Virus record (IMG/VR): IMGVR_UViG_3300048927_000516
Location: 1-44,782 of that record
Length of the DNA stretch: 44,782 bases
Reading direction: 5' to 3' (one strand)
From: a virus
The notes beneath the pieces were generated by a model. That model did no database searches. It worked only from the letters and a program-made list of their open reading frames with translations, and was not told the origin of the DNA. The translations under genes were made by a program, and so were the position numbers. Each line of letters opens with the position of its first letter. Position 1 is the first letter of the stretch. Shown one piece after another: positions 63 through 44,782 of this stretch.

Positions 63-137
63 ATGTCCCCTATCTCCGCCACACCCGCCCCACTCTCCCG
101 CCGCTTCTCCGTCGCCCCGATGATGGATTGGGCGTAG
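63..137 (+). pseudogene. dusA: 5' remnant of host dusA, 24 codons then stop
   Basis: An ATG at 63 opens a reading frame that contains [11 protein letters not shown], the same block found in the intact dusA copy at the right edge, then ends at a TAG at 135-137 just past the att core. This is the original chromosomal beginning of dusA, separated from the rest of the gene by prophage insertion. The residues before the shared block differ completely from those at the right junction, as expected if the right-hand 5' end came from the phage. The host start codon is intact, so a 24-residue peptide may still be made and transcription may run on into the prophage. Confidence 0.85.
114..127 (+). other. 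left att core (14 bp)
   Basis: GCCCCGATGATGGA is identical to 44656-44669. Identity breaks on both sides: C/G at the base before the core, T/C at the base after it. The crossover therefore lies within these 14 bases. The core codes for APMMD of DusA, which keeps the reading frame across the junction. Confidence 0.85.
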
Positions 138-3276: not shown

Positions 3277-3695
3277 ACTTAAGCATCCATTTTGCAAGAA
3301 TCTACATGACTGTTGCTGCGAACGATGGCGAAATCCTCGATCGATTCATCAATCACGCTCAAGAACACGGGCTAGCCAATCTTCCAGGCCGGCTTAAGCC
3401 TTCGTGGGACGTCCCCACAGATGACCCATTCTGGCTCAAAAAAGTTGAATACGCCCGCCACTGGGATTTATGGCATTACCACGTCGGGATGCCAGATTAC
3501 GATGAAACCAACGGTCATGGCGATTTTACCTCAGAATGGGTTCTGCACCTCCGTCGCTTGCCATGCGGTACTCGAACGCAAATAGTCGATTGGGATAAGC
3601 ACCCGCCATTTGAGCTTCCCCTCGAAAAGTATTTTGTGATGCCTGGCGATGAGATTCCACTGGTTTTCCCTAAGAAGCCGAAGCCGGTGCGCTAA
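3237..3695 (+). CDS. putative YafO-like ribosome-dependent toxin
   Basis: The 152-aa product has a core (FWLKKVEYARHWDLWHYHVG, then TSEWVLHLRR) that matches, from memory, the general pattern of YafO-family mRNA interferase toxins: a hydrophobic strand, a DRF..AQEHGL helix, a P-rich turn with W, then paired His/Trp strands. Tail residues VFPKKPKPVR are basic. The start is uncertain: ATG 3237 overlaps the preceding small gene, while ATG 3306 would remove the first strand. It ends four bases inside the 3' end of umuC on the other strand. Function by similarity of layout only. Confidence 0.5.
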   Translation: MDSGPTSQAGHVVDLSIHFARIYMTVAANDGEILDRFINHAQEHGLANLPGRLKPSWDVPTDDPFWLKKVEYARHWDLWHYHVGMPDYDETNGHGDFTSEWVLHLRRLPCGTRTQIVDWDKHPPFELPLEKYFVMPGDEIPLVFPKKPKPVR

Positions 3696-4969
3696 TCACA
3701 TCGTACCGTCCACAACTGGTCTAGCTTCGTGGTGTAGCTTTGGCTCATCAATTCTCGTCGCATGCTCCATTCAGGACTTCTCGGTACGCTCGCGGCACGA
3801 AGCGTACCTTTGCCCCACCGCTCATTGATCTCATCCAGCACTGCCATCACCTTTGTCGCCTCTGAAGGTTGCGAAACGGCAAACAAATCGTCCGTGTACT
3901 CACCCGGCTGGCACAGATTCAGCAGCATCACTTCGGCTTTGCTGTAGTTGAATCCGGGGCGAAATACCCCCTCAAGCGCGTCGACCGCCGTCTTTGTCAG
4001 CAAGCGCACATCGTCCGTCGGGTACGGCAGATCGACCACCACACCATTCGCGTATTTGGCCTCATCGGGATTGAACATACCGGTGCGGATGCTGACCCGG
4101 ATCTTCTTGCACAGCGACTTCTGTGCCCGGAGCTTTTCCGATGCCCGCATCATGTAAGTCGCCACGGCCTCCTTGATCGGCGGCAGCTCCTTCAGCCTTT
4201 TGCCGAACATTCTGCTGCAGCAGATCTCTTGCTTTGGCGGATCCGACTCGTCCAGCTCCAGGCACGTCGTGCCGGCCAATTCTCGGGCAGTTTTCTCGAT
4301 CACCACGCTGAAGTTTTTCCTCAACATCCACGGGTCTGCTTTGGCCAGATCCATGGCGGTTTTGATCCCCATGCCGTCAAAGTGCAATTTCATGCGCCGT
4401 CCTATTCCCCACACCTCCGCTACGTCCGTGTTACGCAGCACCCAGTCGCGCTTGATTGGGTCGCAGATGTTCACGACGCCACCGGTTTGCGCCTGCAGGC
4501 GCTTGGCGGTGTGGTTGGCCAGCTTGGCCAAGGTCTTGGTGTGCGCGATACCAACGCCGACAGGTATGCCCGTGCAGCGCAGTACCTGGCTGCGGATCTT
4601 GCGGCCGAGGCCGTCCAAATCATTGATGCCGGTGAGGTCGGCGAAGGCTTCGTCGATGCTGTACACCTCAACGGCCGGCACCAACGATTCGATCAGGGTC
4701 ATGACGCGTTCGCTCATGTCGCCGTACAGCGCGTAATTCGAGGAGAACGGGACGATGCCGTGCTGCTTGAGCTTCTGCTTGATCTGGAAGTACGGCTCGC
4801 CCATTTTCACGTAGGGCTTGGCATCGTAGCTCCGGGCGATGACACAGCCGTCGTTATTCGACAGCACCACTATGGGTACCTTGGCCAGGTCAGGACGAAA
4901 CACGCGTTCGCAACTGGCGTAGAAGCTGTTGCAATCGATTAGGCCAAATACCGGCGTCACCTTAGACAT
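3692..4969 (-). CDS. umuC: error-prone DNA polymerase V subunit UmuC (RulB type)
   Basis: A Y-family polymerase of 425 aa, the usual length. Catalytic acidic residues are in LIDCNSFY (D12) and YSIDEAFADL (D106, E107), and the helix-hairpin-helix region follows (DVAEVWGIGRRM). It copies damaged DNA once bound to UmuD' and RecA. The ATG overlaps the end of umuD by eight bases, so the two form one operon. It is carried inside the prophage rather than in the chromosome proper. Similar plasmid-borne rulAB operons are known in Pseudomonas. The C-terminal RNA-like tail usual for clamp binding is not obvious. Confidence 0.95.
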   Translation of the reverse strand: MSKVTPVFGLIDCNSFYASCERVFRPDLAKVPIVVLSNNDGCVIARSYDAKPYVKMGEPYFQIKQKLKQHGIVPFSSNYALYGDMSERVMTLIESLVPAVEVYSIDEAFADLTGINDLDGLGRKIRSQVLRCTGIPVGVGIAHTKTLAKLANHTAKRLQAQTGGVVNICDPIKRDWVLRNTDVAEVWGIGRRMKLHFDGMGIKTAMDLAKADPWMLRKNFSVVIEKTARELAGTTCLELDESDPPKQEICCSRMFGKRLKELPPIKEAVATYMMRASEKLRAQKSLCKKIRVSIRTGMFNPDEAKYANGVVVDLPYPTDDVRLLTKTAVDALEGVFRPGFNYSKAEVMLLNLCQPGEYTDDLFAVSQPSEATKVMAVLDEINERWGKGTLRAASVPRSPEWSMRRELMSQSYTTKLDQLWTVRCD

Positions 4970-5387
4970 GGCTGCGCACGCTGCCGATGATTACGCCCCA
5001 GATGGCTAGCTCATCACCTTCCAGCACATAGCGAGGCGGATACTTGGGGTTTTCAGACAAGAGGATCACGTCCTTTCCCCGGACGCACAGTCGTTTACAC
5101 AGCGGATCGTTGTTCAGCAACGCCACGACGATGTGACCATGGGCTGGCTCCAGCGAACGATCTACCACCGCCAGATCTCCGTCAAAAATGCCCGCGCCCT
5201 GCATACTTTCCCCGGTGATTTTCACCAAGTAGACATGCGGGGCGCGAATGTTGAGAACCTCATCTAAAGAGATGTGTGCCTCAATGTGATCAGCCGCCGG
5301 CGAAGGAAAGCCAGCGGGCACCTGAAATAAACAAAGAGGCAGCTTCAGGCCTACTTCGGCAATTGGGCCTAAAATCGAATAGCTCAT
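4962..5387 (-). CDS. umuD: SOS mutagenesis protein UmuD (RulA type)
   Basis: The 141-aa product has the S24 self-cleavage set: cleavage site Ala25-Gly26 (VPAGFPSP), catalytic Ser61 in TGESMQGAG and Lys98 in LCKRL. RecA-stimulated cleavage yields UmuD', which activates UmuC. Length matches the family. Upstream at 5406-5421 is a perfect LexA box, so the operon should be under direct SOS control. Confidence 0.95.
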   Translation of the reverse strand: MSYSILGPIAEVGLKLPLCLFQVPAGFPSPAADHIEAHISLDEVLNIRAPHVYLVKITGESMQGAGIFDGDLAVVDRSLEPAHGHIVVALLNNDPLCKRLCVRGKDVILLSENPKYPPRYVLEGDELAIWGVIIGSVRSHV

Positions 5388-6077: not shown

Positions 6078-7898
6078 TTACCAAGATCCGAACTTAGCTA
6101 ACGCGTCTTTATGTTCAGACTCACTGTCGTGCTGCCAACGCAAACTCCAGCTCCATTTATCCGCCCTCGGCTTGCAATCTTTACAGGTGTCACAATGATT
6201 TTGCTTGAAGCCTCTCAAAAACTCCTGCTCCGACTCGCGGTCGTATAAAGGAAGTAATAGGCCCCCAGTCCCTGAAACATGATAATGCTTCAAACATACC
6301 AACAAATGCATCCCGCCTGCGGAGTGCATACGCAGCGTTTCGGCCACCATACCAGCGGGACGATAACTGACGAACAGATGTTCGCATTTTCTTAGAATCT
6401 CACTTGGATCATAGTTAGCAAGCCCGCGAGCAACTATCCCTCCCAACATGCATTTAGGGTCATCGGGATCCATTCCTAAATCCTTTGCCATAGATATAAA
6501 GTATTTTTTCTGCTCTAACACACTTAAATCTATAAAGCGTGCTGGCGCGCCTTCATCGCCTATAATCTCATCGTCAAAACTCTCAAAACGCGCAATCAAC
6601 TCAGTATTTAACCTTACTAGTTTCTTGATTTCTGAAATCTGATCAGAGGTAATTTCCGAGCGAACCAAAAACCTGTAAAGCACCACTGCTTTTTCCAGCT
6701 CCCCAGTTAGCGAGCAGGAAGCAAACACAAGTAGATAAACACTACGAAACCATGCATCGAATATAGAAACGGCGGCAACATCGCCTCGACCACCATGCAC
6801 TGATCTGAACAGTATTATGGACACTACAGCACTGACGAAGACGTCACACAAAATTCCAAACTGATCAAGCTTAGTAAGACGCTGACACAACTCTGCGAGT
6901 TTTTGCAAATTATCGCAGCAAATACTGTACAGCTTATGCTCCTCTACGTTGAACATATACTTTTCAATACTGTTTTCAGGAAGCGCTTTTTTTGCGTTAT
7001 GCATCGCATAAAGCTGTTCAGCTCGAATCCTAAACATCAGGACTCGCGTTTTACCTATGGCTAGCAATCGGTATGCTTGGTCTTGCTCTTCCCTAGCGAA
7101 AGCGATCAGCAGATCACAAATCAGCAATTTTTGCTGAAGCTGTTCTCTTTTAATATTGGTAAAAGGCGCAACACTAAGGGCTTGATCATAATAGAGAGCA
7201 GCAACAAACCGGTCTGAGGAAGGAACTATCGTTGAATTTATTAACTGCTGTGATAATTTATAAACCCTCCCAAACTCTTTGCTTCTGAGCAAATTATCAA
7301 GCTGTTGGTGATAAGCTTTGAAAAATACATCACCGACATCTTCTATACGTTTTTGCAGTGCATCTGGACTGATGACATGAAGATTTGAAATCGAAGACTT
7401 CAAACCTTTGAATGCAAGATAATCCCAACAGATACTTACTGCATTTAAAAGCGTATCCGTAGATCGAGGCGAACCTTTGAGAATTTCATTGGCGACAGGC
7501 AAGTGGATTTGAATTGTTTCATTCGCTGCCGATCTTTCGGCTTTTTTTATCAAGTCTTCATTTCCGGTCACCGGAACCCAGAAAATGCGCTCACTTGAGA
7601 CTTCCACAACCACTAAAATAACAGGAACGCAAAATGAAAAATAGTACCTTAAACGCTCCAAGTCCAAACTAAAAGAAACAGTTATTCCACCACTGATAAA
7701 ACTCGAAAACTCTTGCCCCTTTATCTGCACTTTGAAAACCGAACTTTCCCCTAATGCTTTGCCGGTAGCATCCTTGAGTTCAATCTCCCCATCAATCCCG
7801 TGATCATTTTGATCCTCTTGAGATCTGAAAATCCAATTTGATGGCAACTTATATTCAAAGATCCTCCCGGCAACTGTACCTATTTCACCCGCATTCAT
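6078..7898 (-). CDS. DUF4365 nuclease-like protein with long helical region, 606 aa
   Basis: The N-terminal 150 residues carry the DUF4365 signature: E15 in a helix, NDHGIDGEIEL (D36, E38) and a strand with Q58-I-K60-G, the arrangement of a PD-(D/E)xK nuclease core. The middle (about 190-480) is a run of helices of TPR-like character. The C-terminus has a Cys/His cluster (HCDTCKDC) and a Trp-rich end. DUF4365 proteins are frequent in defence islands, where they are thought to cut nucleic acid. AGGGAGG precedes the ATG at 7898. The gene is clearly AT-rich against its GC-rich neighbours, a sign of separate acquisition. It lies 123 bp downstream of the D12 methyltransferase on the same strand. 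Confidence 0.75.
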   Translation of the reverse strand: MNAGEIGTVAGRIFEYKLPSNWIFRSQEDQNDHGIDGEIELKDATGKALGESSVFKVQIKGQEFSSFISGGITVSFSLDLERLRYYFSFCVPVILVVVEVSSERIFWVPVTGNEDLIKKAERSAANETIQIHLPVANEILKGSPRSTDTLLNAVSICWDYLAFKGLKSSISNLHVISPDALQKRIEDVGDVFFKAYHQQLDNLLRSKEFGRVYKLSQQLINSTIVPSSDRFVAALYYDQALSVAPFTNIKREQLQQKLLICDLLIAFAREEQDQAYRLLAIGKTRVLMFRIRAEQLYAMHNAKKALPENSIEKYMFNVEEHKLYSICCDNLQKLAELCQRLTKLDQFGILCDVFVSAVVSIILFRSVHGGRGDVAAVSIFDAWFRSVYLLVFASCSLTGELEKAVVLYRFLVRSEITSDQISEIKKLVRLNTELIARFESFDDEIIGDEGAPARFIDLSVLEQKKYFISMAKDLGMDPDDPKCMLGGIVARGLANYDPSEILRKCEHLFVSYRPAGMVAETLRMHSAGGMHLLVCLKHYHVSGTGGLLLPLYDRESEQEFLRGFKQNHCDTCKDCKPRADKWSWSLRWQHDSESEHKDALAKFGSW

Positions 7899-31776: not shown

Positions 31777-31957
31777 GGTGGTGTGGTGCATGCCGCTCTC
31801 TGCGGTCGCACCTATCGAAGATGACTACTTTTTACAGGTCGATTCCGGTGGCAGCAACCCTGTGTTAATGCCACCCGGTGAATAAGTGGGTAACGCAGGG
31901 TGAACGCCTAGCGAATGTCGGTGAATACACCACCACGGCATTCTGTTGTTTCGGTGC

Positions 31958-32237
31958 TGTCCCATACGTCCCACTTTTCAGAATCGAAGTGGGACGCCTG
32001 AGAGCGCCTAAATTCGGGGCTTCGCCCCACTGTCCTACTTATCTTTCTCCTTTCTCGTGTAAAGGAGGAAATTTAAAGAACACGCATGCGCGTGAAACGC
32101 GCGTACTGCTGCCCGCTACGCTTACACGGGCGGGAGGCACTTTGTAGCGGGACGGTGGGACAGCCCAACAACGACAAGGCCCGCACCTGTCCCACTGCAT
32201 CAAAACGCAGCGAGGCAAGACGGGCCAGTGGGACAGC
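31958..32237. promoter_or_regulatory. late-control region with repeated GTGGGAC motifs
   Basis: The 528-bp gap 31733-32260 has no gene. It contains six copies of GTCCCA(C) or its complement, forming a 10-bp perfect hairpin CGTCCCACTT/AAGTGGGACG (31967-31976/31987-31996) and a 9-bp inverted pair GTGGGACAG (32155-32163) with CTGTCCCAC (about 32187-32195), plus another GTGGGACAG near 32229. A GGGGC/GCCCC hairpin (about 32016-32028) and a CTCCTTT/AAAGGAG pair lie between. The late promoter should be here, between the Q-like gene and holin. Confidence 0.55.
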
Positions 32238-32260: not shown

Positions 32261-32620
32261 TCACGCAGCCAGCCCCATCATCACGCCGAAGATCTGCAGA
32301 TGCGCCTCATGCAAACGCTGGTAGTACGTGTCGCGGCCACAACCGCAGTGCGCGTATCGCAAGCGCATATCCACATCGAGCGTGCAGTAATGCTCACGCA
32401 CCACCGCCACCAACTCGGGCGCGAGGTGCTTGGTCACGATCAGCTCGATGTCCAACGAACTTTCCAGCGGAGCACGGAAGGCCCGCCGCCCCCTGATCAG
32501 TTGCCCGTTGCTCTCCATCATCATCGCAACCATGTTCCCCCCAGCAAGCCCCCCTTTCGAATGTTCGGAGTGCAGCTCCTGCGCCCACAACCTCAGCAGC
32601 GAATCGATCTCCTTAATCAA
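32261..32620 (-). CDS. Q-like late antiterminator candidate, 119 aa
   Basis: The gene probably starts at TTG 32620, overlapping the VapE stop by eight bases; longer starts would run far into VapE. The product (LIKEIDSLLRLWAQELHSEH, then HLAPELVAVVREHYCTLDVD, and CGCGRDTYYQRLHEAHLQIF) ends in a helix-turn-helix resembling sigma region 4, as in phage Q-type antiterminators. Its place directly before the late-control region supports this. The start remains uncertain. Confidence 0.65.
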   Translation of the reverse strand: MIKEIDSLLRLWAQELHSEHSKGGLAGGNMVAMMMESNGQLIRGRRAFRAPLESSLDIELIVTKHLAPELVAVVREHYCTLDVDMRLRYAHCGCGRDTYYQRLHEAHLQIFGVMMGLAA

Positions 32621-35888: not shown

Positions 35889-36122
35889 CTAAGCTACTTT
35901 TTTCACTGGGCTTGTTTCAGTGATACCGAAATGAGCTAGAACCTCTACGAGCGAGACAAAGCCCTCGCTTTCACGGGCAAGGGACTTGATCAAGGAAACG
36001 CTAGGATCTTTGCTCGCGTATTTAACGTGAAGACGCAGATAGCTAACAGCAATCCGACAGCGTGCGGCGTAGGCACTGAGTGCCTCTGAATCCAAATGGT
36101 TGATGTAGTCACGCAGTTTCAT
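35889..36122 (-). CDS. Cro-like repressor
   Basis: AAAGGAGG precedes the ATG at 36122 with six bases spacing; the longer frame (from 36188) would run through the operator. The 77-aa product (LRDYINHLDSEALSAYAARCRIAVSYLRLHVKYASKDPSVSLIKSL) has the YdaS/Cro helix-turn-helix layout. It is divergent from cI, with two operators between, and leads the leftward lytic operon. Confidence 0.8.
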   Translation of the reverse strand: MKLRDYINHLDSEALSAYAARCRIAVSYLRLHVKYASKDPSVSLIKSLARESEGFVSLVEVLAHFGITETSPVKKVA

Positions 36123-36147
36123 GTGGTGCACCTCCTTTGGCGCCAAT

Positions 36148-36164
36148 TTAACCATTAAGGTTAA
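36148..36164. promoter_or_regulatory. repressor operator O1 in the cro promoter
   Basis: TTAACCATTAAGGTTAA is a perfect dyad (TTAACC-N5-GGTTAA). It fills the spacer between TTGAAA and TAAATT boxes reading leftward into cro. Confidence 0.8.
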
Positions 36165-36187
36165 TTTTTTCAACACCATTTTGGACA

Positions 36188-36204
36188 TTCACCCTGAAGG
36201 TTAA
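36188..36204. promoter_or_regulatory. repressor operator O2 near the cI promoter
   Basis: TTCACCCTGAAGGTTAA differs from O1's arms at one base. It lies 19 bp before the cI start, just after TTGGAC at 36181, so repressor could regulate its own gene. Confidence 0.75.
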
Positions 36205-36222: not shown

Positions 36223-36870
36223 ATGAAAATCTCCGATACCCGATTGCAAAATTTCCGAAGAGTCTTGGCCGAGAAAAAGCTCCGCCTGACTGACATCGCA
36301 GACCTTCTAGGCAAAGCGCCCGCTCAGGTGAGTGCTTTCGGGGGCAAGAACCCATCCAAAGGTATCGGCGATCAGATTGCCCGGGAAATTGAGAAAGCGT
36401 TAGATCTCTATAGTGGCTATCTAGACATGCCCTACGGGCTTGGTGAATTCAATAACGCTACGGTGATGAGCCACACAGATCGAAAATTGCCGGTAATAGG
36501 TTCGATTGCGGCAGGTGCATGGTGCGAGCCAAACGGGATCTTCGACCCTAGAGACGCTGAGGAGTGGATTGACGCGCCAGGACCAGTTGGACCGCGTGCT
36601 TTTATCCTTCGCGTTGAGGGAATGAGCATGGAACCTAAGTTCCAAGAAGGAGACTTGATTGTTATCGATCCGGCACTTGAAGCACTTCCTGGTCATTTCG
36701 TCGCAGCAAAAAGAACAAGAGATCAAGCAGCAACACTGAAGCAGCTCAGACAGGAAGGTGATGAGCAATATTTGTTCGCTATCAATCCAGACTGGCCGGA
36801 GAGAATCATTAAAATGAATGAGGAGTGGAGTATTTGCGGCCGAGCTCGATGGAAAATATCAAATTTATAG
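36223..36870 (+). CDS. CI-type repressor, S24 self-cleaving
   Basis: The 215-aa protein has an N-terminal helix-turn-helix (LTDIADLLGKAPAQVSAFGG) and a C-terminal S24 domain with cleavage site Ala97-Gly98 (GSIAAGAW), catalytic Ser135 in VEGMSMEPKF and Lys173 in ATLKQL. RecA filaments should trigger self-cleavage and induction. There is no strong ribosome site before the ATG. It should bind the GGTTAA dyads. Confidence 0.9.
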   Translation: MKISDTRLQNFRRVLAEKKLRLTDIADLLGKAPAQVSAFGGKNPSKGIGDQIAREIEKALDLYSGYLDMPYGLGEFNNATVMSHTDRKLPVIGSIAAGAWCEPNGIFDPRDAEEWIDAPGPVGPRAFILRVEGMSMEPKFQEGDLIVIDPALEALPGHFVAAKRTRDQAATLKQLRQEGDEQYLFAINPDWPERIIKMNEEWSICGRARWKISNL

Positions 36871-36888: not shown

Positions 36889-37947
36889 TTAGCTTGACTC
36901 GTCCACTTCAATTTCAACAGTTTGAAATCTCCCTACTTCAACCTGCCTGTATTTCTCCAGCAAAGGTTTATTATGCTGGTGCATTGCAACATTCAGTCGA
37001 TTTTTTAAAGATAGTCCGTCAGATTGACCGCAGGCCAATAGCCTACCTACCCGTCCCATTGCTCGACTATAGAGCTCGCGCAACTGAATCAAATCCCCTC
37101 CCATCTCTGCGAACACTTCAAATTGTCGCACCGCAGAACGTATTTGCTTTCTTTCTTTTTTTGTAACACCAGGACGGGGTCCCGCAACACTTAGACCTGT
37201 AATCACTACAGCTTCAGGCTCATGAGATTTTGTGATCACCTGACCTTTTTTTAAAATGTGCATTTTTTGCCGCTTCTGAAGAAAGCCTTTTGCGGCTAGC
37301 ATTCCTGTAACTCTTCGCACAATCTCTGTTTTTTGATCGGGCAGAATTATGCCCTTCGAGGAAATGCTTATGTCATCCGCAAAGCGACTATAAGACATGC
37401 CTTGTTCTTTTACCCACGATACCAATCTTGGTTCTACATCCCAGAAAACTAAATTTGCTATATAACTGCTTGTACTTGCCCCTTGTGGTACGACCCCACC
37501 CTTTGTGACAAGCCTAGCCAGCATGACAGCAACATCATCGCCAAACCCCATCATGCCTTTAAATATCGAAAGCACCTTATCGATGGTAATTGATGGAAAA
37601 AAATTCTTTATATCCTGCAACACAATATTGCGAGCACCTGAATGAGACTTAACATTCGAGTAAATGCTACGCGGGGAATTAGGGTCTTTAATTCCACCGT
37701 GAAGGTAGTCGGGAAACGAAACCTTAGCTAGCAGCCTGTCCACAATTTTTCGTTGAACAGTTTTCAACGGTTCGTGAGCGTCGAAGGTCTCTCTTTCTGA
37801 CCCATCTTTCTTAATTTGAGGTACCCGCCGATACATTTTGTGAGAATCCTCCGCTAGTTTATTCAACAAGGGAACAGTTTCTCCAAGCAATAGAGCAAGA
37901 GACTTAATATTATAAATCGGTTTGTAGGGGTAGCGCGGAGAGTCCAT
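36889..37947 (-). CDS. retron-type reverse transcriptase
   Basis: The start at 37947 (MDSPRYPYKPIYNIKSLALL) is chosen because AGAGG lies at correct spacing and the longer frame begins inside a terminator stem. Visible in 352 aa: NVKSH (98-102, the retron NxxxH motif), QDIKNFFPSI with catalytic D112, PQGASTSSYIANL (154-166), YSRFADD (186-192, catalytic pair) and ITGLSV (249-254, the retron VTG motif). These two extra motifs separate retrons from group II intron RTs. It converges on cI and is downstream of an 86-aa gene. No fused effector domain is present. It would copy a nearby ncRNA into multicopy single-stranded DNA, usually for phage defence. Confidence 0.85.
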   Translation of the reverse strand: MDSPRYPYKPIYNIKSLALLLGETVPLLNKLAEDSHKMYRRVPQIKKDGSERETFDAHEPLKTVQRKIVDRLLAKVSFPDYLHGGIKDPNSPRSIYSNVKSHSGARNIVLQDIKNFFPSITIDKVLSIFKGMMGFGDDVAVMLARLVTKGGVVPQGASTSSYIANLVFWDVEPRLVSWVKEQGMSYSRFADDISISSKGIILPDQKTEIVRRVTGMLAAKGFLQKRQKMHILKKGQVITKSHEPEAVVITGLSVAGPRPGVTKKERKQIRSAVRQFEVFAEMGGDLIQLRELYSRAMGRVGRLLACGQSDGLSLKNRLNVAMHQHNKPLLEKYRQVEVGRFQTVEIEVDESS

Positions 37948-37958
37948 TTCCACCTCTG

Positions 37959-37992
37959 AAAAAAATAAGGCCAGCAAATTTGCTGGCCTTAT
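37959..37992 (-). terminator. 28-bp perfect palindrome with T run between the 86-aa gene and RT
   Basis: ATAAGGCCAGCAAA pairs with TTTGCTGGCCTTAT (37965-37978/37979-37992), followed on the minus strand by TTTTTTT. It is a strong intrinsic terminator 12 bp before the RT start. RT would be expressed only by read-through or from a leaderless start, unless the hairpin has another role. Confidence 0.8.
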
Positions 37993-38020: not shown

Positions 38021-38281
38021 TCATAGGTTCAACAACTCCACAAGGGCCTCAATCATTTTCGAGGCATGCTCCTGGACGAAAGGCCAATTCTGAATCCCCC
38101 AACGTACAGCTTCCTTTGTCACCGTTTTGACCACAGCGGTCAAAATTTTGCTTCGGGTTTCTGCAACGTCTGGTGTAGCAGTTTTCGGGTCCTTTCCGGT
38201 CTTATCAGTGACGCGGACACCTTCATTGTTGTGCACATGCTTTGCCGCCTTATGGCGACAAGTTTTCTTTAAATATTTCAT
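38021..38281 (-). CDS. 86-aa basic helical protein, retron partner candidate
   Basis: AAAGGAG lies eight bases before the ATG, a strong site. The product has a basic N-terminus (KYLKKTCRHKAAKHVH), a polar middle (TDKTGKDPKTATPDVAETR) and two amphipathic helices (ILTAVVKTVTKEAVRWGIQN; EHASKMIEALVELLNL). No transmembrane segment. I do not recognise the family. It directly precedes the retron-type RT and may be its effector or a cofactor. An 8-bp hairpin (TTTTGACC/GGTCAAAA) lies inside the gene. Confidence 0.7.
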   Translation of the reverse strand: MKYLKKTCRHKAAKHVHNNEGVRVTDKTGKDPKTATPDVAETRSKILTAVVKTVTKEAVRWGIQNWPFVQEHASKMIEALVELLNL

Positions 38282-38875: not shown

Positions 38876-38903
38876 TTGACTTAATAACCTTCAAGGTTAA
38901 TAT
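38876..38903 (+). promoter_or_regulatory. promoter of the rightward early operon with operator O3
   Basis: TTGACT (38876-38881), 16 bp, TAATAT (38898-38903) make a good sigma-70 promoter. The dyad ATAACCTTCAAGGTTAA (38884-38900), one base from O1's arms, fills the spacer. An extra GGTTAACC lies just upstream (38863-38870). Repressor bound here would silence the operon in the lysogen. Confidence 0.8.
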
Positions 38904-38939: not shown

Positions 38940-39116
38940 ATGCACACCACAGCAACCCTCCACGTCCACCCTGCCGCTGCCAACCCCTTCCAAATTTTTG
39001 AGATTCGGCGCCTAGCCCGCGAGTACGGCTGCGCGTTCGCCATCAGCAGACCGAAGCTGACAGCGCGGACCACTTCTGCACCAGTCAATCCGAACGGCGG
39101 AGGGCACGCGGCATGA
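38940..39116 (+). CDS. first gene of the early operon, 58 aa, unknown
   Basis: GAGG seven bases before the ATG and an ATGA overlap with the next start support this short gene. The product is rich in Ala, Thr and Pro with a short helix (FEIRRLAREYGCAFAIS) that could bind DNA or a protein partner. It is too short to be sure of any family. Confidence 0.6.
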   Translation: MHTTATLHVHPAAANPFQIFEIRRLAREYGCAFAISRPKLTARTTSAPVNPNGGGHAA

Positions 39117-39703
39117 TCAAGTACAAAATCGACAACCGCACCCTGCAGTTGCTCAACGCTCAGGTCAACCTGACCGAGACCTTCAATCACTTACTCCGCA
39201 CATCGCCCAAGCGCGAATGTCTGGCGTTCCGTTTGAAGGCTGAACGCGGGACTACGGAAAGCACTTTCGTTGTCGAGCTGGGCAGCGAACGCCACACGCT
39301 GACCCTACAGAACGACAAGAAAATGCACCTCAAGCTAGCCGACTTCATCGAAGAGATCGCCAATGGCCCTTTCGATACGAGTAATTCCAACGACTTGGTG
39401 CACCGCCCGCACACTAGCCGTGAATATGGCCGCTTCGAGGTCTCGGACAAGCAACGGGTGTTCGAGCTGGTACGCGTCGGGGGCGTGCTGAGTCTCGACA
39501 TGGGCTTCGATTACCCCCTGCAAGTCGCGGTGCATCGCACGCAATCGCGCTCAGGTATCACCACCATCCTGAGTATCGGTAACAAAAGCCCGCACACCCG
39601 CTGCTTCACCGCGTACGGCACCGATATCGAGATCTATGGCAAGGTCACCGAGCCCATCAACCACCTCGCTGCAGCGGCCACCCCAGCCGCGCACGCGGCA
39701 TGA
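39113..39703 (+). CDS. early protein, 196 aa, unknown
   Basis: The product is strand-rich (MIKYKIDNRTLQLLNAQVNL, then TFVVELGSERHTLTLQND, EVSDKQRVFELVRVGGVLSLD) and ends in an Ala-rich tail. It has no membrane segment or recognised catalytic motif. It is coupled to the 58-aa gene before it. Early-operon place suggests a takeover or replication-support role. Confidence 0.65.
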   Translation: MIKYKIDNRTLQLLNAQVNLTETFNHLLRTSPKRECLAFRLKAERGTTESTFVVELGSERHTLTLQNDKKMHLKLADFIEEIANGPFDTSNSNDLVHRPHTSREYGRFEVSDKQRVFELVRVGGVLSLDMGFDYPLQVAVHRTQSRSGITTILSIGNKSPHTRCFTAYGTDIEIYGKVTEPINHLAAAATPAAHAA

Positions 39704-39713
39704 GGGGGACGCT

Positions 39714-39998
39714 ATGGAACGCACACTCGCCCAAGCCGCAACCCAACTCGGCCTCACCCGGCCCAAGCTCATCGCCCGCATGCGGGAAAAAGGCCTGCTC
39801 AACGAGAAGAACCTACCGGCCTACCCCAACCGCGACCGCGATTACCTGCGCATCAAGGACGGCCAGTGGTACCACGACCAGCTCGGCATGCAGTACAGCC
39901 AGTCGACCAGAGTGAAACAACCCGGCATCCGCTGGCTGGCCGAACAGTTGGGCATCGACCTACCTGCCATCCCGGCAGACAACCGTGACGTGGCCTAG
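39714..39998 (+). CDS. KilAC-type antirepressor domain protein, 94 aa
   Basis: GAGGGGGAC precedes the ATG at 39714. The product (MERTLAQAATQLGLTRPKLI, LLNEKNLPAYPNRDRDYLRI, TRVKQPGIRWLAEQLGID) is the C-terminal KilAC/ANT domain alone, a helix-turn-helix plus strands. Phage antirepressors with this domain relieve CI repression or act in early control. Confidence 0.75.
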   Translation: MERTLAQAATQLGLTRPKLIARMREKGLLNEKNLPAYPNRDRDYLRIKDGQWYHDQLGMQYSQSTRVKQPGIRWLAEQLGIDLPAIPADNRDVA

Positions 39999-40164
39999 GG
40001 AATACGCCCGCCAGATCATCGCCATGCGGACACGAGAGGAGCGCAACGCCGCGCTCCTCGAAGTGCCCGAACATCTGCGCGAGCTAACCCGAACCCACTG
40101 CCTGAACGCCTGGAATCACCCGGCCAGAAAACAACGCAAGGAGGCCCAACAAAGCCATGAGTAA
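39985..40164 (+). CDS. small early protein, 59 aa
   Basis: GTG at 39985 overlaps the KilAC gene and the frame ends inside the start of the next gene. The product (TWPREYARQIIAMRTREERN, VPEHLRELTRTHCLNAW, KQRKEAQQ) is helical and charged. Overlaps on both sides make it a real member of the operon; its function is unknown to me. Confidence 0.65.
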   Translation: MTWPREYARQIIAMRTREERNAALLEVPEHLRELTRTHCLNAWNHPARKQRKEAQQSHE

Positions 40165-40474
40165 CACAGCCCAAAACCCACTGCGCCTGCACCCAGCACC
40201 GGAGTCAGCCACCGTCGAATTGCTCTACCGCATCTTCGGCGACGTCCTGATCCCGCTGGACAAAGTGCGCGAACAGTACTTCCGCAACCTCAACGAGCAA
40301 TCCTTCGTCGCCGAGATCAGCAGCGGTCGCATTCAGCTACCCATCACCACGCTGGACACCAGCCGCAAGGCACCGAAGTACGCCCACATTCGCCATGTCG
40401 CCTCCCTGATCGACATCCGCGCCTACAAGGCCGACGAAGACATGCAGCGACAGCAGGACGAGGCCACCGAGTAA
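40157..40474 (+). CDS. PrtN-like pyocin-activator family protein, copy 1
   Basis: AAGGAGG lies upstream (about 12 bases). The 105-aa product contains VELLYRIFGDVLIPLDKVREQYF and FVAEISSGRIQLPITTLDTS, then HIRHVASLIDIRAYKADED, the PyocinActivator pattern of P. aeruginosa PrtN. PrtN activates pyocin genes after SOS; here it may activate late phage or host genes. Confidence 0.75.
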   Translation: MSNTAQNPLRLHPAPESATVELLYRIFGDVLIPLDKVREQYFRNLNEQSFVAEISSGRIQLPITTLDTSRKAPKYAHIRHVASLIDIRAYKADEDMQRQQDEATE

Positions 40475-40531
40475 CCACCAAAACCGAACGGCTGCCACCA
40501 CCAGCCAACGACATCACCAGGAGCACACCAC

Positions 40532-40951
40532 ATGACCGCAATTCAGATCTGCGCACTCATCGCCTTGATCACCCTGGCCGGGCTACTCGTCTGGGCCGGC
40601 TACTTCATGGGCCACAGCGACGGCATGTCCGCCGGCATGAAAGAAAGCGACGACACCCTTCGTGCCGAAAGCGCCAAGACCATTCGCGAGTTACGGGCCT
40701 CGCTCGACTTCATCAGGGCCGACCACGCTCACTTGGCGCAATTCAGCAAACGTCTCCAGCAAGCGCTGGCACTCGGCGAACCCGAGCGCCAAACGCTGCT
40801 CGACATCGCTGACAAGCTCAGGATCGCCGCTGAGACATTCGCTGCCTTCCGCACTGGCAAAAAACTCGAACGTGAAACCCGCGTCCTGCGCGACCAGGCG
40901 CTCGCCATCGCTGCGCTGCTGGAGCCGGCAGATCAGGAGAGCGCCGCATGA
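40532..40951 (+). CDS. membrane-anchored coiled-coil protein, 139 aa
   Basis: One N-terminal transmembrane segment (ICALIALITLAGLLVWAGYFM, about 5-25) leads to a long helical coiled coil (ESDDTLRAESAKTIRELRAS to the end). AGGAG precedes the ATG. It overlaps the next gene by four bases. It has the layout of i-spanins or of proteins that scaffold complexes at the membrane; its early-operon place argues against lysis. Confidence 0.65.
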   Translation: MTAIQICALIALITLAGLLVWAGYFMGHSDGMSAGMKESDDTLRAESAKTIRELRASLDFIRADHAHLAQFSKRLQQALALGEPERQTLLDIADKLRIAAETFAAFRTGKKLERETRVLRDQALAIAALLEPADQESAA

Positions 40952-41601
40952 GCCAGGCCAATTCCCAATCCCCCACAAACCGCAACCCGGTTCACGCCTC
41001 ATCAGCGGCTGATGAACCAACGCGCAATCGAACTTCGGAGGAAAGCGGCATGCACAAGGACCAGCACAACACCCAATCCCCAACCGCTTTGCTCCGCGAG
41101 GAAGCCAGCGTCGACACACTAGAAACAAACAGCCTCTGCTGCGCAGCAGCAGGCATTATTGCTCCTTCCAGCAGCACCACCGAGGCGCTTATACCCCACG
41201 AAAGGCTGCGCGAGGCAGCCACACCCAATGCAACGCTAATCGCTCAGAAACGCCCGCCCGCGCAGCCTGTTGTGGGGTATGGGCACGGCTCACCCACTTA
41301 TGAAATTCCCCCACTCGAGCTATCCGACTCGCTGGTGCAAGCCGTGACCCGCCATGTGGCTGCCCGCCCCTTCACAGGCCCAAGAGCATTGATGCGCCGC
41401 TTTGGGATTGGTTTGCAACATGCCCGCTGGATTCTGGTAGTGCTGGAACAGCGGGGGTTGGTGCGCGGCCACTGGGGACGATTGGTGGCGACCAGTTACA
41501 TCCAAGGTGTTTCTGCCCATCGCATTTACCGAGTGACCCCAGAAGCCTGGGGCACTCACCTGACCATGGACAAGCAGGGCCAGATGGGAGTCGCCAGATG
41601 A
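40948..41601 (+). CDS. protein with FtsK-gamma-like winged helix, 217 aa
   Basis: The first 120 residues are low-complexity and polar. The C-terminal part (DSLVQAVTRHVAARPFTGPR, ALMRRFGIGLQHARWILVVL, EQRGLVRG) matches the FtsK gamma domain pattern, the KOPS-reading winged helix of the DNA translocase. No ATPase is present, so it cannot be a translocase itself. It could bind KOPS-type DNA sites or compete with host FtsK. A large inverted repeat lies in the linker (41192-41279). Confidence 0.7.
   Translation: MSQANSQSPTNRNPVHASSAADEPTRNRTSEESGMHKDQHNTQSPTALLREEASVDTLETNSLCCAAAGIIAPSSSTTEALIPHERLREAATPNATLIAQKRPPAQPVVGYGHGSPTYEIPPLELSDSLVQAVTRHVAARPFTGPRALMRRFGIGLQHARWILVVLEQRGLVRGHWGRLVATSYIQGVSAHRIYRVTPEAWGTHLTMDKQGQMGVAR
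41192..41279. repeat. long imperfect inverted repeat inside the FtsK-gamma-like gene
   Basis: TACCCCAC-gaa-AGGCTGCGCG (41192-41212) and CGCGCAGCCT-gtt-GTGGGGTA (41259-41279) pair at 18 of 21 positions across 46 bp. It lies in the low-complexity linker of the protein, so the DNA or RNA form may be under selection rather than the peptide. It resembles a REP doublet. Confidence 0.6.
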
Positions 41602-42587
41602 GTACTCGCAACATAGTTAGCGTCAGCGGAGGGAAGGACTCCACCGCAACCCTACTGGTAGCAATAGCCCTAGAGACAGAAAACCTCCAGGCCGTCTTCG
41701 CCGACACCGGTAATGAACACGAACAGACACTCCAGTACCTGGAATACCTTGAGCAAGCGACGGGAGTGCCGATCACCAGAGTCAAAGCCGACTTTTCCAA
41801 TCAGATCGCCGGAAAACGAAGGTTCATCGAGACCAAGTGGCGAGAGCAAGGCATCGAAGAGTCGTTGGTATTGGCTGCCCTCGACACTCTGCAACCCACC
41901 GGCAATCCGTTTTTAGACTTGTGCCTCTGGAAAGGACGCTTCCCCAGCGTCCGAGCCCAGTTCTGCACTCTGGAACTGAAGCGCGATCCCATGCTGGAGC
42001 AGGTCGTGCTTCCCCTGACGGAACAGGGCGACATGATTCTCAGTTGGCAAGGCGTGAGAGCAGGTGAATCGTTGAACCGCCGTTATCTGCCGGAGTGCGA
42101 CGAAGTCGGTGGAGGCCTATTCAACTACCGGCCGATTCTGAAATGGGACGTCCCCGCCGTGTTCGAGGCTCACCGGTACATGGGGATCAAGCCAAACCCG
42201 CTCTATTCCCAAGGCATGGGCCGGGTGGGATGCATGCCCTGTATCAACTGCCGCAAGGACGAACTACGGGAAATTGCGCTGCGTTTCCCCGAGGCGATCG
42301 ACAGGATCGAACGCTGGGAGCGCTTGGTGCAACAGGCCAGCAAGCGGGGCGCCGCGACATTCTTTGCAGGTTCGAACGCCAAGCATCCAAAAGGCTCGAT
42401 ATCCGGTATGACGGCTATCGAAGTGATGGAAATCGCGAGTATTCGCCAGGCGGTGGAATGGTCGAAGACCACTCGTGGCGGCATCCAGTACGACCTGTTG
42501 ATCGCTACGGATAAAAACAACTGCTCAAGCGCATACGGGCTCTGTGAAAGCGGATGGGCGCCACACCAAATAATGGAGGCAGCATGA
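41598..42587 (+). CDS. PAPS-reductase-family (adenine nucleotide alpha hydrolase) protein
   Basis: The 329-aa product starts with the PP-loop SVSGGKDSTA (8-17) for ATP binding, followed by VFADTGNEHEQT. A later Cys cluster (GRVGCMPCINCRKDE) may hold an Fe-S cluster. DndC of DNA phosphorothioation and many phage proteins share this fold. ATGA couplings join it to both neighbours. Substrate unknown; nucleotide or DNA/tRNA sulfur transfer is possible. Confidence 0.8.
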   Translation: MSTRNIVSVSGGKDSTATLLVAIALETENLQAVFADTGNEHEQTLQYLEYLEQATGVPITRVKADFSNQIAGKRRFIETKWREQGIEESLVLAALDTLQPTGNPFLDLCLWKGRFPSVRAQFCTLELKRDPMLEQVVLPLTEQGDMILSWQGVRAGESLNRRYLPECDEVGGGLFNYRPILKWDVPAVFEAHRYMGIKPNPLYSQGMGRVGCMPCINCRKDELREIALRFPEAIDRIERWERLVQQASKRGAATFFAGSNAKHPKGSISGMTAIEVMEIASIRQAVEWSKTTRGGIQYDLLIATDKNNCSSAYGLCESGWAPHQIMEAA

Positions 42588-42856
42588 ATACCTTATTTCT
42601 ACTTATGGCTCAGTATGACGGGCAAGCTGTCATCCCATTAGATCGCGTCTGTGCAGACTACATGCACCTGACCGTTGAGAAATTCAAACGCAAAAGGCTC
42701 GACGGTGAGATAGACATCCCAGTCGTTCGCTTAGGTGCTGACACACAAAAGGCAGCCCTTGGAATCCATCTCAAAGATCTTGCTGACTACATTGACAAAC
42801 AGCGAGAGAAGGCAGCTCGCGAACAGAATCAATTAATGGGCAGGAAAGCGGCATAG
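42584..42856 (+). CDS. PrtN-like pyocin-activator family protein, copy 2
   Basis: The ATG at 42584 follows GGAGG and overlaps the previous stop. The 90-aa product (NTLFLLMAQYDGQAVIPLDR, VCADYMHLTVEKFKRKRLDG, IPVVRLGADTQKAALGIHLK) is closer to classical PrtN than copy 1. It ends the operon before a bidirectional terminator. Confidence 0.85.
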   Translation: MNTLFLLMAQYDGQAVIPLDRVCADYMHLTVEKFKRKRLDGEIDIPVVRLGADTQKAALGIHLKDLADYIDKQREKAAREQNQLMGRKAA

Positions 42857-42860
42857 CTTC

Positions 42861-42897
42861 AAAAAGTGGGGAGAGCCTTGAGCCATCCCCACTTTTT
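42861..42897. terminator. bidirectional terminator between the early operon and the integrase side
   Basis: AAAAAGTGGGGA (42861-42872) and TCCCCACTTTTT (42886-42897) form a perfect 12-bp stem with T runs on both strands, between convergent genes. Confidence 0.9.
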
Positions 42898-43380: not shown

Positions 43381-44478
43381 TCAATCAGGTTTCACGCAGG
43401 CCTTCAGCCAAGGCCATCCTTTGAACGTGTCACCCCGTCCTCTTAAATGCGTATATCGGCGCAACGAGTTCCAGTCCCTATGTCCGGAAACACTCGAAAC
43501 CCTGGGAATATCCCAGTCCATTTCGAACAGGCGACTCACGCCTTCATGCCTTAGATCATGGAAGTGCAGATCCTCAATACCCAACAGCGGACACGCCCGC
43601 GTGAACGACGCCGACACCGATCTGGAGTTGTACGGAAATATCACCTGCTCTCTCCTTGGCATACTCTGCAGGATCGCCCAGGCCTCATCGGGCAGATGGC
43701 ACCACACGTCGTTGCCGATCTTCTGTCCGGGGTTCTTCATATCACGCACCAGGACGGCCTGGCGGGACTCGTCGAGATCATCCCAGCGTATCCGCGTGAT
43801 CTCCTCCTGGCGGCGCGTCGAGAAGAGAGCAAAAGCAATCATCTTCGGCATGTTGATCGACTCAGGTCGACGTACCTGCATTTCGAAAAAGTGCCTCATC
43901 AACCTGTCCAACTCATCCAGTGTCGGCCGACGGTTGCGCTCCTTGCTCTTGCTCACCATACCTAGCTTTCGTAACACCTTGCGCGCGTCGGGCATTGCCA
44001 GCGCATCTACCTCGTAGCCCCAGGCCGGTCGCGCCACGGACAGCACCGCGCCCAAATGCGAGAGATCATTACCGACCGTCTGCGCCTGAACACCGCCGCC
44101 CTCTTTACTCATCCGCCACTGTGCGAACTCCACAAGCTTCTGACTGGTCAGGGCCGAGTCGTCGAGGTCGCCCAGCCAGGTATCCTTAATCGCCTTCAAT
44201 GTCGCGTTCTTGGTCTTGCCCAGCGGCCGGATTTTCTCGTACTCGTCCAGGTACTGCTCGATCATCTTTCTGATCGTCACACCCTTACGATTTGCGCGCT
44301 CAATCGCACCAGGTTCAGCCAGCTCAGTCTCACGCCGTTTGATCCAAGCTTGGGCGACCTGCTTTCGGTCGAAAGTTTGGCTTTCCTGATAAACTGTGCG
44401 CCCGTCCCGATTGATCCGTATCTGCGCCGTGTAGGCCGTCGAGTTGTCCTTGCGCTTGCGTGATGTGATCGTGCCCAT
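43381..44478 (-). CDS. int: tyrosine integrase of the dusA-integrating type
   Basis: A 365-aa tyrosine recombinase: N-terminal arm-binding domain (STAYTAQIRINRDGRTVYQE), then catalytic residues in ALFSTRRQEEI, FHDLRHEGVSRLF, SGHRDW and LRRYTHL (nucleophile Tyr). It makes and removes the prophage at the DusA core. The gene is 100 bp from the right junction, the usual place for dusA integrases. TTGCTACA-type sites overlap its promoter. Confidence 0.95.
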   Translation of the reverse strand: MGTITSRKRKDNSTAYTAQIRINRDGRTVYQESQTFDRKQVAQAWIKRRETELAEPGAIERANRKGVTIRKMIEQYLDEYEKIRPLGKTKNATLKAIKDTWLGDLDDSALTSQKLVEFAQWRMSKEGGGVQAQTVGNDLSHLGAVLSVARPAWGYEVDALAMPDARKVLRKLGMVSKSKERNRRPTLDELDRLMRHFFEMQVRRPESINMPKMIAFALFSTRRQEEITRIRWDDLDESRQAVLVRDMKNPGQKIGNDVWCHLPDEAWAILQSMPRREQVIFPYNSRSVSASFTRACPLLGIEDLHFHDLRHEGVSRLFEMDWDIPRVSSVSGHRDWNSLRRYTHLRGRGDTFKGWPWLKACVKPD

Positions 44479-44484
44479 TTCCAG

Positions 44485-44522
44485 TTGCTACATTGCCGAA
44501 TTCGCTTGCTACATTGTAGCAA
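44485..44522. other. arm-type integrase sites over the int promoter
   Basis: TTGCTACATTG occurs at 44485-44495 and 44506-44516. The second is part of the 17-bp palindrome TTGCTACATTGTAGCAA (44506-44522). On the minus strand this palindrome contains TACAAT, a good -10 box for int. A single copy of the motif lies at 190-198 near the other end. Confidence 0.6.
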
Positions 44523-44584: not shown

Positions 44585-44782
44585 ATTTCGAAAAACCTGA
44601 AGCGCCCGTAAACACTAGCCATGCCCGTTCCGAGCCGTCTCGCCGCTTTAGTGTGGCCCCGATGATGGACTGGACTGACCGCCACTGCCGTTTCTTCCTA
44701 CGCCTCTTGTCGAAGAACGCCCTGCTCTACACCGAAATGGTCACCACCGGCGCCCTCCTCAACGGCGATCACGAACGTTTCC
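44581..44782 (+). CDS. dusA: tRNA-dihydrouridine synthase A, 3'-truncated by the window edge
   Basis: The frame gives [19 protein letters not shown] then [20 protein letters not shown] and [19 protein letters not shown], the N-terminal FMN-binding barrel of DusA, which reduces U20/U20a in tRNA. The first 30 residues, up to the att core, are phage-supplied and replace the host start left at 63-137. The host gene thus stays in frame. Confidence 0.95.
44656..44669 (+). other. right att core (14 bp)
   Basis: GCCCCGATGATGGA, identical to 114-127. Bases beyond it (CTGGACTGACC) are host dusA; bases before it are the phage-borne replacement 5' end. Confidence 0.85.

Follow-up and report, generated by a model that had tools for sequence, protein, structure and literature searches.

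Two PrtN-family paralogues in the early operon of a dusA-inserted Pseudomonas prophage: a proposed late-gene activator and a proposed excision factor

Why should a single prophage operon carry two members of the family named for the pyocin activator PrtN (Pfam PF11112)? Virus record IMGVR_UViG_3300048927_000516, whose full 44,782 nucleotides are here called the window, contains two such genes, copy 1 and copy 2; both score far above the family cut-off of 24.2 bits (Table 1), and they share 32% identity over 66 amino acids. Pfam calls both of them PrtN and PHROGs calls both excisionase (phrog_1300), the PHROGs names being derived from clustering, not from a test. A first-pass annotation of this DNA had correctly recognized two PrtN-like genes in one operon, and had suggested that their targets might be the late genes of the phage, pyocins of the host, or both. 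Here we argue that the two paralogues have probably divided the work within one putatively SOS-responsive early operon, copy 1 serving late activation and copy 2 serving excision. The parts are known and the division of labour is new; a limited literature search found no account of two PF11112 copies with split roles.

The family tree has two sides, and each of the 155 two-copy loci examined contributed one gene to either side; profiles made separately for each side agreed with this for 453/453 domains. Copy 1 grouped with the PrtN genes of tailocin loci and copy 2 fell on what we call the RdfN side; support for the split was 100/97, with a long-branch warning, in a tree that includes neither the RdfN tested in Vibrio nor PrtN from P. 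aeruginosa. The premise of the first-pass annotation that pyocin activators are normally single fails for prophages, as 22 of the 87 Pseudomonas genome stretches that surround a PF11112 gene hold two copies. Among 369 genomes drawn class-wide in search of non-Pseudomonas relatives, PF11112 turned up in 2, including G001. The start of copy 2 is most likely the ATG at 42584, which overlaps the preceding stop and has GGAGG just upstream, rather than the ORF-finder start at 42554; the protein then has 90 residues.

All genes from 38940 to 42856 share one strand, and most overlap their neighbour by a few bases, in a tightly packed operon. The palindrome AACCn5GGTT occurs three times in the window, at 36150 in the cI-cro gap and at 38854 and 38886. 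The promoter-like site of the operon was recognized from a sequence scan together with the palindrome, the scan by itself being at chance level (5 found vs 5.3 expected). Since the palindrome at this site is also found in the cI-cro gap, repression of the operon by CI is likely, which favors the CI control that the first-pass annotation had surmised; a swap test of the operators, which is a weak control, gave a mismatch of 0.193 for own and 0.239 for swapped operators. The operon is probably damage-inducible (SOS-responsive).

Table 1. Features of the window discussed in the text
Feature	Position	Strand	Evidence or remarks
att repeat	96..131	+	in native dusA start, now truncated (ATG at 63); by sequence
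GTAAAAAG, conserved core of late promoter region	31828..31835	-	in 142/142 regions fetched
11-bp-period repeat array, RTTCRCC-like units, candidate copy 1 site	31877..31927	-	window p 0.0115
phrog_4300 protein	32264..32617	-	downstream of primase; gene directly precedes array
small divergent gene, cro position	35889..36188	-	sub-threshold, weak PF11112 similarity over 29 aa
AACCATTAAGGTT, putative CI operator	36150..36162		cI-cro gap
cI, S24-peptidase (LexA-type) repressor	36223..36870	+	PF00717 E 4.6e-22; phrog_4
AACCTACCAGGTT, second palindrome	38854		near operon promoter-like site
promoter-like site of operon, TTGACT-16-TAATAT	38876..38903	+	sequence scan + palindrome
AACCTTCAAGGTT, putative CI operator	38886-38898		between -35 and -10 of operon promoter-like site
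first operon ORF, 58 aa	38940..39116	+	ATGA overlap with following ORF
early protein, 196 aa, phrog_15582	39113..39703	+	PHROGs match
KilAC/ANT-like protein, 94 aa	39714..39998	+	PF03374 E 9e-8; phrog_5689
ORF, 59 aa, phrog_3648	39985..40164	+	PHROGs match
copy 1, PF11112, PrtN side, proposed late-gene activator	40157..40474	+	98.9 bits; tree; Mantel
139-aa protein, phrog_28176	40532..40951	+	PHROGs match
217-aa protein, FtsK-gamma-like per first-pass annotation	40948..41601	+	no family match
PAPS-reductase-like protein	41598..42587	+	PF01507 E 4.5e-20; phrog_424; PADLOC SspD E 2.2e-21
copy 2, PF11112, RdfN side, proposed recombination directionality factor (excisionase)	42584..42856	+	91.3 bits; phrog_1300 'excisionase'; tree; co-occurrence; Mantel
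terminator-like hairpin, 12-bp stem + T run	42861..42897	+	closes operon; read from sequence
integrase, dusA-type, tyrosine	43381..44478	-	PF00589 E 5.1e-18; phrog_1; convergent with copy 2
TTGCTACATTG repeats, candidate Int/RDF arm sites	44485..44522		between int and attR
att repeat	44638..44673	+	in phage-supplied dusA 5' end (ORF from 44581)
identical att core, 14 bp, GCCCCGATGATGGA	within 96..131 and 44638..44673

The window is an entire Pseudomonas prophage that occupies the 5' end of dusA. The replacement dusA start brought by the phage matches Dus (PF01207, E 5.6e-10), and the prophage lies between att repeats at this place, as expected for an RdfN-type RDF. TGTAGCAA, from the region of the candidate arm sites, recurs at 191, beside attL, and at 1621, and exact TTGCTACA occurs five times in the window vs 0.8 expected. 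An Rfam scan of the window gave no match at gathering scores.

The presence of an RdfN-side gene followed the type of integrase. Among loci fetched with copy 1 alone, such a gene accompanied a dusA-type integrase in 16/16 genome loci and 40/40 viral loci, and other integrases in 0/20 and 0/24, respectively; across the 116 distinct viral loci, of which roughly half were retained from the fetch with copy 2, the counts were 68/68 vs 0/24. Among all loci with an integrase in view, the exceptions to the pairing were L008 and L280, with an integrase fragment. The gene lay at a median of 809 bp from the dusA-type integrase and was convergent with it in 162 of 163 pairs. Copy 2 also co-diverged with Int (Mantel r 0.92, against -0.01 with copy 1; n=71), although part of this correlation comes from linkage because copy 2 and int are neighbours. 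One locus with a different integrase, L145, has an excisionase of another family (phrog_9668) adjoining that integrase, and this type of excisionase was matched, by xisB similarity, in further loci with other integrases.

The published work on RdfN, a Vibrio PF11112 protein, establishes it as the recombination directionality factor (RDF) of a dusA element by deletion, complementation and a mini-element (PMC8409611). Like copy 2, RdfN of IMEVchUSA3 from Vibrio cholerae is a small PF11112 protein of a dusA 5'-end element with a dusA-specific integrase, a likeness of family, element and integrase. Unlike copy 2, which is on the integrase side, convergent with int and in a CI-type operon, rdfN of IMEVchUSA3 is described as lying across attP from int and being driven by AcaCD (PMC8409611). 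On the grounds of context, co-occurrence, co-divergence and likeness to the tested RdfN, copy 2 is very likely the RdfN counterpart, that is, the excision factor of the dusA-type integrase.

Copy 1 behaved otherwise. It was independent of integrase type and tracked the replication module (Mantel r -0.04 with Int and 0.62 with primase), and relatives with a non-dusA-type integrase kept copy 1 and had no copy 2. In the late promoter region, lags of 11 and 22 stood out between -100 and -40 before the core (0.41 and 0.43 vs a median over lags of 0.25), this stretch being the best of four tried. In 12 of the 14 regions tested, the segment with the strongest 11-base lag began 85-93 bases ahead of the core, and in the others at -81 and -94; the array was non-significant in 3 of the 14 (L205, p 0.89; L202, 0.28; L208, 0.09), and its significance in the window is moderate. 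The P-box of PrtN is described as direct repeats of ~11 bp upstream of controlled genes (PMC4905994). A true P-box was present at the corresponding place in PrtN-clade prophages in 5 of 10 records, namely the five over 18 kb, and in 5/5 the distance from its start to a GTA(A/C)AA-type core was exactly 87 bases; just three of these records are independent because two of the five supplied the pattern. The search for P-box-like sites in this phage that the first-pass annotation had proposed yielded none above chance: the best match in the window to the classical P-box (four ATTGnn(n)GTnn(n) repeats) was 18/24, with a mean of 18.0 in shuffles, and the derived P-box pattern matched 0/11 copy-1-group records. 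Because the classical P-box was not found, copy 1 would be PrtN-like in its working rather than PrtN proper. The arrays of tailocin loci have repeat units that differ from the window's. Neither result speaks for activation of host pyocins. A cluster of GTCCCAC/GTGGGAC was considered as the copy 1 site but rejected: its neighbour is a hairpin-like repeat adjoining primase, so that the cluster may belong to an origin, and the array, which is closer to the promoter, agrees better with what the relatives show.

Taken together, the position of copy 1 on the PrtN side of the tree and an 11-bp array placed like a P-box suggest that copy 1 is probably a PrtN-type activator of the phage's own late genes. 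As in the PrtR/PrtN system of P. aeruginosa, a PF11112 protein would be under the putative control of an S24-type repressor, and direct repeats of ~11 bp lie ahead of the genes proposed to be controlled; the prophage differs in an array unit that is not ATTGnn(n)GTnn(n) and in the proposed target, the phage late genes.

Phage Haddon (PQ571161) has the same arrangement: both PF11112 genes stand in identical order downstream of the repressor gene, and an integrase 62% identical to the window's adjoins copy 2. Haddon also has an 11-bp array at the late promoter, but with a different unit, and both of its PF11112 genes are annotated just 'excisionase'. In dusA islands, the accessible text of Farrugia et al. 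2015 reports a prtN homologue in 60 of 94, gives its role as not known, and does not distinguish two kinds of homologue (PMC4482086).

Structural models of both copies matched excisionases best (GIsul2 Xis, Z 6.3 and 6.2; Cox, the DNA-binding protein of phage P2 in entry 4lhf, Z 5.6 and 5.9), and BldC was matched at Z 4.5; the best scores of both copies are about 5-6, and values below 8 can reflect no more than a common arrangement. These predicted likenesses to P2 Cox and BldC-like winged-helix proteins come with no sequence kinship, and a search of solved structures by sequence gave marginal matches only (best E 0.012), with no named DNA-binding relative. The absence of a PrtN structure among the structural matches listed carries no evidential weight. 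Copy 1 and copy 2 are paralogous, probably winged-helix proteins, which may bind DNA. BldC binds direct repeats head to tail. P2 Cox is excisionase and transcription regulator in one protein, whereas the window prophage would use two paralogues for the two jobs.

That both copies activate transcription of late phage genes, host pyocins or both would agree with their common family and its name, and the late-gene half of the first-pass proposal has sequence support for copy 1, given its tree position and the late-promoter array. For copy 2 it finds no such support: where an integrase is in view, copy 2 pairs and co-diverges with dusA-type integrases, L008 and L280 apart; relatives with another integrase dispense with it; and a PF11112 protein is a proven RDF in a dusA element (PMC8409611). 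Activation by both is very improbable. The converse, that both are excisionases or that both are required with Int as a heteromeric RDF, is also improbable, if less so. The phrog_1300 assignment, the Haddon labels and the resemblance of both models to excisionases speak for it, but the names are a clustering outcome, copy 1 is retained with other integrases, some of which are accompanied by an excisionase of another family, as in L145 and the xisB-similar loci, and copy 1 did not co-diverge with Int.

A more serious, though still unlikely, alternative is that copy 1 regulates the early operon or replication, and that the array belongs to the phrog_4300 product, CII or another protein. Copy 1 does co-vary with the array (partial r 0.79), but a single copy-1 type (L313_1, 5 loci) accounts for this; with that type left out the value was 0.58, compared with 0.62 for primase and 0.63 for CII, and within the window's own copy-1 type it was 0.15, so that co-variation loses its force as decisive proof. 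In L042, and in the tailocin loci L316 and L281, a gene of the phrog_4300 family also comes before the array; being present in tailocin loci too, this gene is a common factor as well. A second late regulator, for example the phrog_4300 protein, may also take part. On the other hand, what PrtN-clade prophages carry at the corresponding place is a true P-box, where PrtN is known to act, which favors copy 1 as the late activator.

With copy 1 as activator and copy 2 as excision factor, the proposed circuit would work as follows. Intact CI would repress the operon promoter at about 38.88 kb, and its cleavage would allow both copies to be made. Copy 1 would then bind the array and activate the late genes, which run leftward (terminase, head, tail), in the way that PrtN activates pyocin genes, and copy 2 would turn the dusA-type integrase from integration to excision, so that the prophage leaves dusA. 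The link from induction to bacteriocin release in the first-pass annotation is better read as one in which induction leads to excision and to late gene expression.

The RdfN paper raises the question of how rdfN is driven in prophage-like dusA elements (PMC8409611); the anatomy of the prophage group suggests a driver, since rdfN there ends an operon whose promoter has a CI-type palindrome. As for the role of prtN in dusA islands, the same anatomy suggests that the second PF11112 gene encodes a distinct protein that has another partner. The two-sided split also tells PrtN-type from RdfN-type proteins by sequence where Pfam and PHROGs names merge them, and points to an origin of the pyocin activator that can be tested. 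Prophages and tailocin loci have in common the phrog_4300 gene, the 11-bp array and the GTA(A/C)AA-type core. We tentatively raise the possibility that the PrtR/PrtN pyocin switch arose by domestication of part of this prophage circuit, PF11112 having given rise in these phages to an excision factor tied to the integrase and an activator tied to the late promoter, with a repeat unit that changed in each activator lineage and so insulates co-resident prophages and tailocins.

Two other operon genes had been named in the first-pass annotation. The FtsK-gamma-like label finds no backing, as neither the 217-residue protein nor six relatives had an FtsK-gamma Pfam match and the window protein had no PHROGs match. 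The PAPS-reductase-like gene was correctly called, and appears to be variable cargo, being found in 9 of the 116 distinct copy-1 loci from viruses and in 1 of the 51 from genomes.

The window's two PF11112 genes (copy 1 and copy 2) lie in one operon. The products come from two branches of the family and appear to be an excision factor (copy 2) and, most likely, a late activator (copy 1). The first-pass annotation was right to call both genes PrtN-like: copy 1 scored 98.9 bits and copy 2 91.3 against a cut-off of 24.2, with 32% identity between them over 66 aa. Because PHROGs puts both in phrog_1300 ('excisionase'), family names alone cannot separate them. AlphaFold2 models of copy 1 (pLDDT 79.7) and copy 2 (pLDDT 87.1) had the order helix-strand-helix-helix-strand-strand-long helix, and their best fold matches were mostly excisionases (Z for copy 1, copy 2): GIsul2 Xis (6.3, 6.2), the phage P2 DNA-binding protein 4lhf, presumably Cox (5.6, 5.9), Pukovnik Xis (5.1, 4.6) and RdfS (4.9, 5.1). 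At such Z values the excisionase likeness of the two models is suggestive only.

Features of the prophage, by position
Feature	Position	Strand or direction	Remark
Native dusA start (ATG)	63		stop reached after 24 codons
36-base repeat common to both dusA starts	96-131; 44638-44673		81% identical, 14-base identical core
TTGCTACA repeats	191; 1621; 44485-44522		near both prophage ends; candidate integrase or RDF arm sites
UmuC/UmuD-like polymerase pair	3692-5387	minus	near left end
606-aa protein	6078-7898	minus	DUF4365 (E 4.2e-17); PADLOC Aga_REase-PNTD1-PNTD2 (E 6.9e-13)
Late genes	from about 31.3 kb	leftwards	terminase, portal, capsid, tail sheath, tape measure, fibre
Inverted repeat GGTGGCA...TGCCACC	31847-31875		between array and late promoter core; also in Haddon, U5, LPPA36
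GTCCCAC/GTGGGAC cluster	31968-32234		5 of 6 window sites in 267 bases; hairpin-like repeat 32178-32226 inside
cro-position, CII-like, primase genes		leftwards	
cro-position protein	35889-36188	minus	weak PF11112 similarity (29 residues, E 0.013), under cut-off
cI		rightwards	
AACCn5GGTT, cI-cro gap	36150		
Reverse transcriptase	36889-37977	minus	best PADLOC match RT_VI (E 1.6e-74)
ORF	38021-38281	minus	with the reverse transcriptase, between cI and operon
AACCn5GGTT, just before operon	38854; 38886		
Operon with both PF11112 genes	38940-42856	rightwards	mostly overlapping genes; terminator-like hairpin
PAPS-reductase-like gene	41598-42587		also similar to SspD (E 2.2e-21)
Integrase	43381-44478	minus	right end of prophage
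Phage-supplied dusA start	44581		restores dusA; ORF matches Dus family

The survey set held 298 loci, the window among them. Viral loci were the best 80 of 187 for copy 2 and the best 80 of 212 for copy 1 (one common to both); 51 genome loci were fetched by copy 1. A draw of 149 Pseudomonas genomes, 70 with a PF11112 match, yielded 89 places, of which 87 were added and two (L163, L188) were already in the set. Contigs overlapped among the viral loci fetched by either copy, and counts are per locus unless stated. Searched with an iterated profile, the set contained 453 PF11112 domains, two each in 155 loci and one each in 143. A tree of 100 representatives (88% identity clusters) had two sides with branch support 100/97, albeit from few columns and under a long-branch warning. 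On the RdfN side (59 rows, including copy 2), 49 representatives were the PF11112 gene nearest the dusA-type integrase and 10 had no integrase in view; the PrtN side (41 rows, including copy 1) comprised 18 second copies, 7 genes from loci with other integrases and 16 from loci without one. Profiles built from members of either side reproduced the split for 453/453 domains, and two-copy loci had one gene per side in 155/155. PrtN-side rows without an integrase include the genes of L316, L281, L325 and L334, in which an integrase was sought and none found, and tail tube, sheath or tape-measure genes are present; TrpE (Pfam) adjoins the PF11112 gene in L316, with an equivalent ORF in L281, and an S24 repressor does so in L325. 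We infer that these four are tailocin loci, the head-gene search there being non-exhaustive.

Among loci fetched by copy 1 only, an RdfN-side gene accompanied the dusA-type integrase in 16/16 genome and 40/40 viral loci, and other integrases in 0/20 and 0/24; no integrase was recognised in 15 genome and 16 viral loci. The distinct viral loci numbered 116, of which the copy-2 fetch supplied 59 and the copy-1 fetch 57; in these, copy 2 was present in 68/68 with a dusA-type integrase versus 0/24 with another, and in 8 of the 24 without a recognised integrase; L008 and L280 have copy 2 with the integrase as a fragment only. Over 71 distinct loci, distances of copy 2 followed those of the integrase (r 0.92; 0/999 permutations as high), part of which is linkage because the two genes adjoin. 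The corresponding values were -0.04 for copy 1 and integrase, 0.62 for copy 1 and primase, and 0.13 for copy 2 and primase. L145, which has another integrase, retains copy 1, and phrog_9668, a different excisionase family, adjoins that integrase. Named phages agree with the association: Haddon has both genes, and the integrase adjoining its copy 2 is 62% identical to that of the window; in U5 and LPPA36 only copy 1 is present, the dusA-type integrase being absent from the stretches read; and the PF11112 genes of BcepIL02 (128.7 vs 60.2 bits) and mEp460 (55.7 vs 43.6 bits) are nearer the RdfN side and near related integrases (54% and 36% identical). The tested precedent for copy 2 is RdfN: as described in PMC8409611, excision was lost on deletion and regained on complementation, and Int plus RdfN were enough for excision of a mini-element in E. 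coli. Copy 2 is very likely a recombination directionality factor. Of the initial proposal that both copies could be activators, the half concerning copy 2 is not supported, given its co-occurrence with the integrase; for copy 1, its place on the PrtN side and the array described below make a late activator a good probability. For activation of host pyocins the analysis gives no support.

In the copy-1 group (relatives of copy 1), 11-bp repeats follow phrog_4300 at the place that the P-box (PrtN target repeats) takes in the tailocin-PrtN clade; about 45 bases later comes the core GTAAAAAG, found in 142/142 regions fetched. Four stretches were tried for a lag-11 signal; in the best of them, -100 to -40, mean self-match reached 0.41 (lag 11) and 0.43 (lag 22) vs a median of 0.25, and 94/118 distinct regions, many of them near-copies, differed from base shuffles at p<0.05. 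Tested singly, the array gave p 0.0115 in the window, 0.0245 in L134, 0.0010 in L316 and 0.0005 in L050, L071, Haddon, L325, L334, L281, L270 and L042; three regions failed (L208, p 0.09; L202, 0.28; L205, 0.89). The best lag-11 window lay 85-89 bases before a GTA(A/C)AAAG core in Haddon, U5, LPPA36, the four tailocin loci and prophages L270 and L042, with lineage-specific repeat units. The array co-varied with copy 1 (r 0.82, partial 0.79, n=112), a figure that depends on a single copy-1 type (5 loci): when this type was left out, the array gave 0.58 with copy 1, 0.62 with primase and 0.63 with CII, copy 1 not being ahead, and within the window's copy-1 type the value was 0.15. Because the co-variation hinges on that type, it is put as a likely prediction from sequence that copy 1 works like PrtN.

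The proposed scan for P-box-like sites in the window came out at chance (best 18/24, shuffle mean 18.0). Scores of at least 20 occurred in 3/15 loci of the tailocin-PrtN clade (L270, L042 and L057) vs 4/283 others; the site lies after phrog_4300 and before terminase in L042, and before holin and spanin genes in L057. A pattern written from these three sites matched 5/10 records of the clade, the five above 18 kb (two pattern sources, three new), and 0/11 copy-1-group records, window included; reversed, it matched 0/21. In each of the five, the distance from the P-box start to the core GTA(A/C)AA(A/G/C)G, which follows it, is exactly 87 bases. L042 has its single lag-11 test above, and the other four of these P-box records gave p 0.002-0.003.

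That the operon is CI-controlled, also suggested at the outset, found support in the sequence and is likely. The palindrome AACCn5GGTT has three sites in 44.8 kb vs about 0.7 expected, one of them between cI and cro and two directly ahead of the operon. Over 76 distinct loci, the promoter palindrome differed from its own cI-cro stretch by 0.193 mismatch vs 0.239 when swapped, a slight edge only; the promoter-like site before the operon is one of 5 found, 5.3 expected. The operon with both copies is probably damage-inducible.

The IMG/VR record of 44,782 bases contains a complete prophage within dusA. Rfam gave no match anywhere in the window. The reverse transcriptase and its accompanying ORF are a candidate retron or similar defence cargo. 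GTCCCAC/GTGGGAC, found in 118/124 distinct regions, may mark replication origin iterons. The PAPS-reductase-like gene resembles SspD, a DNA phosphorothioation protein, and is cargo, since few copy-1 loci have it (9/116 viral, 1/51 genome). Two copy-1 relatives, L152 (at 644) and L177 (at 2603, minus strand), carry 10-bp tandem repeats (GAACTGGAGT) below primase, distinct from the 11-bp array.
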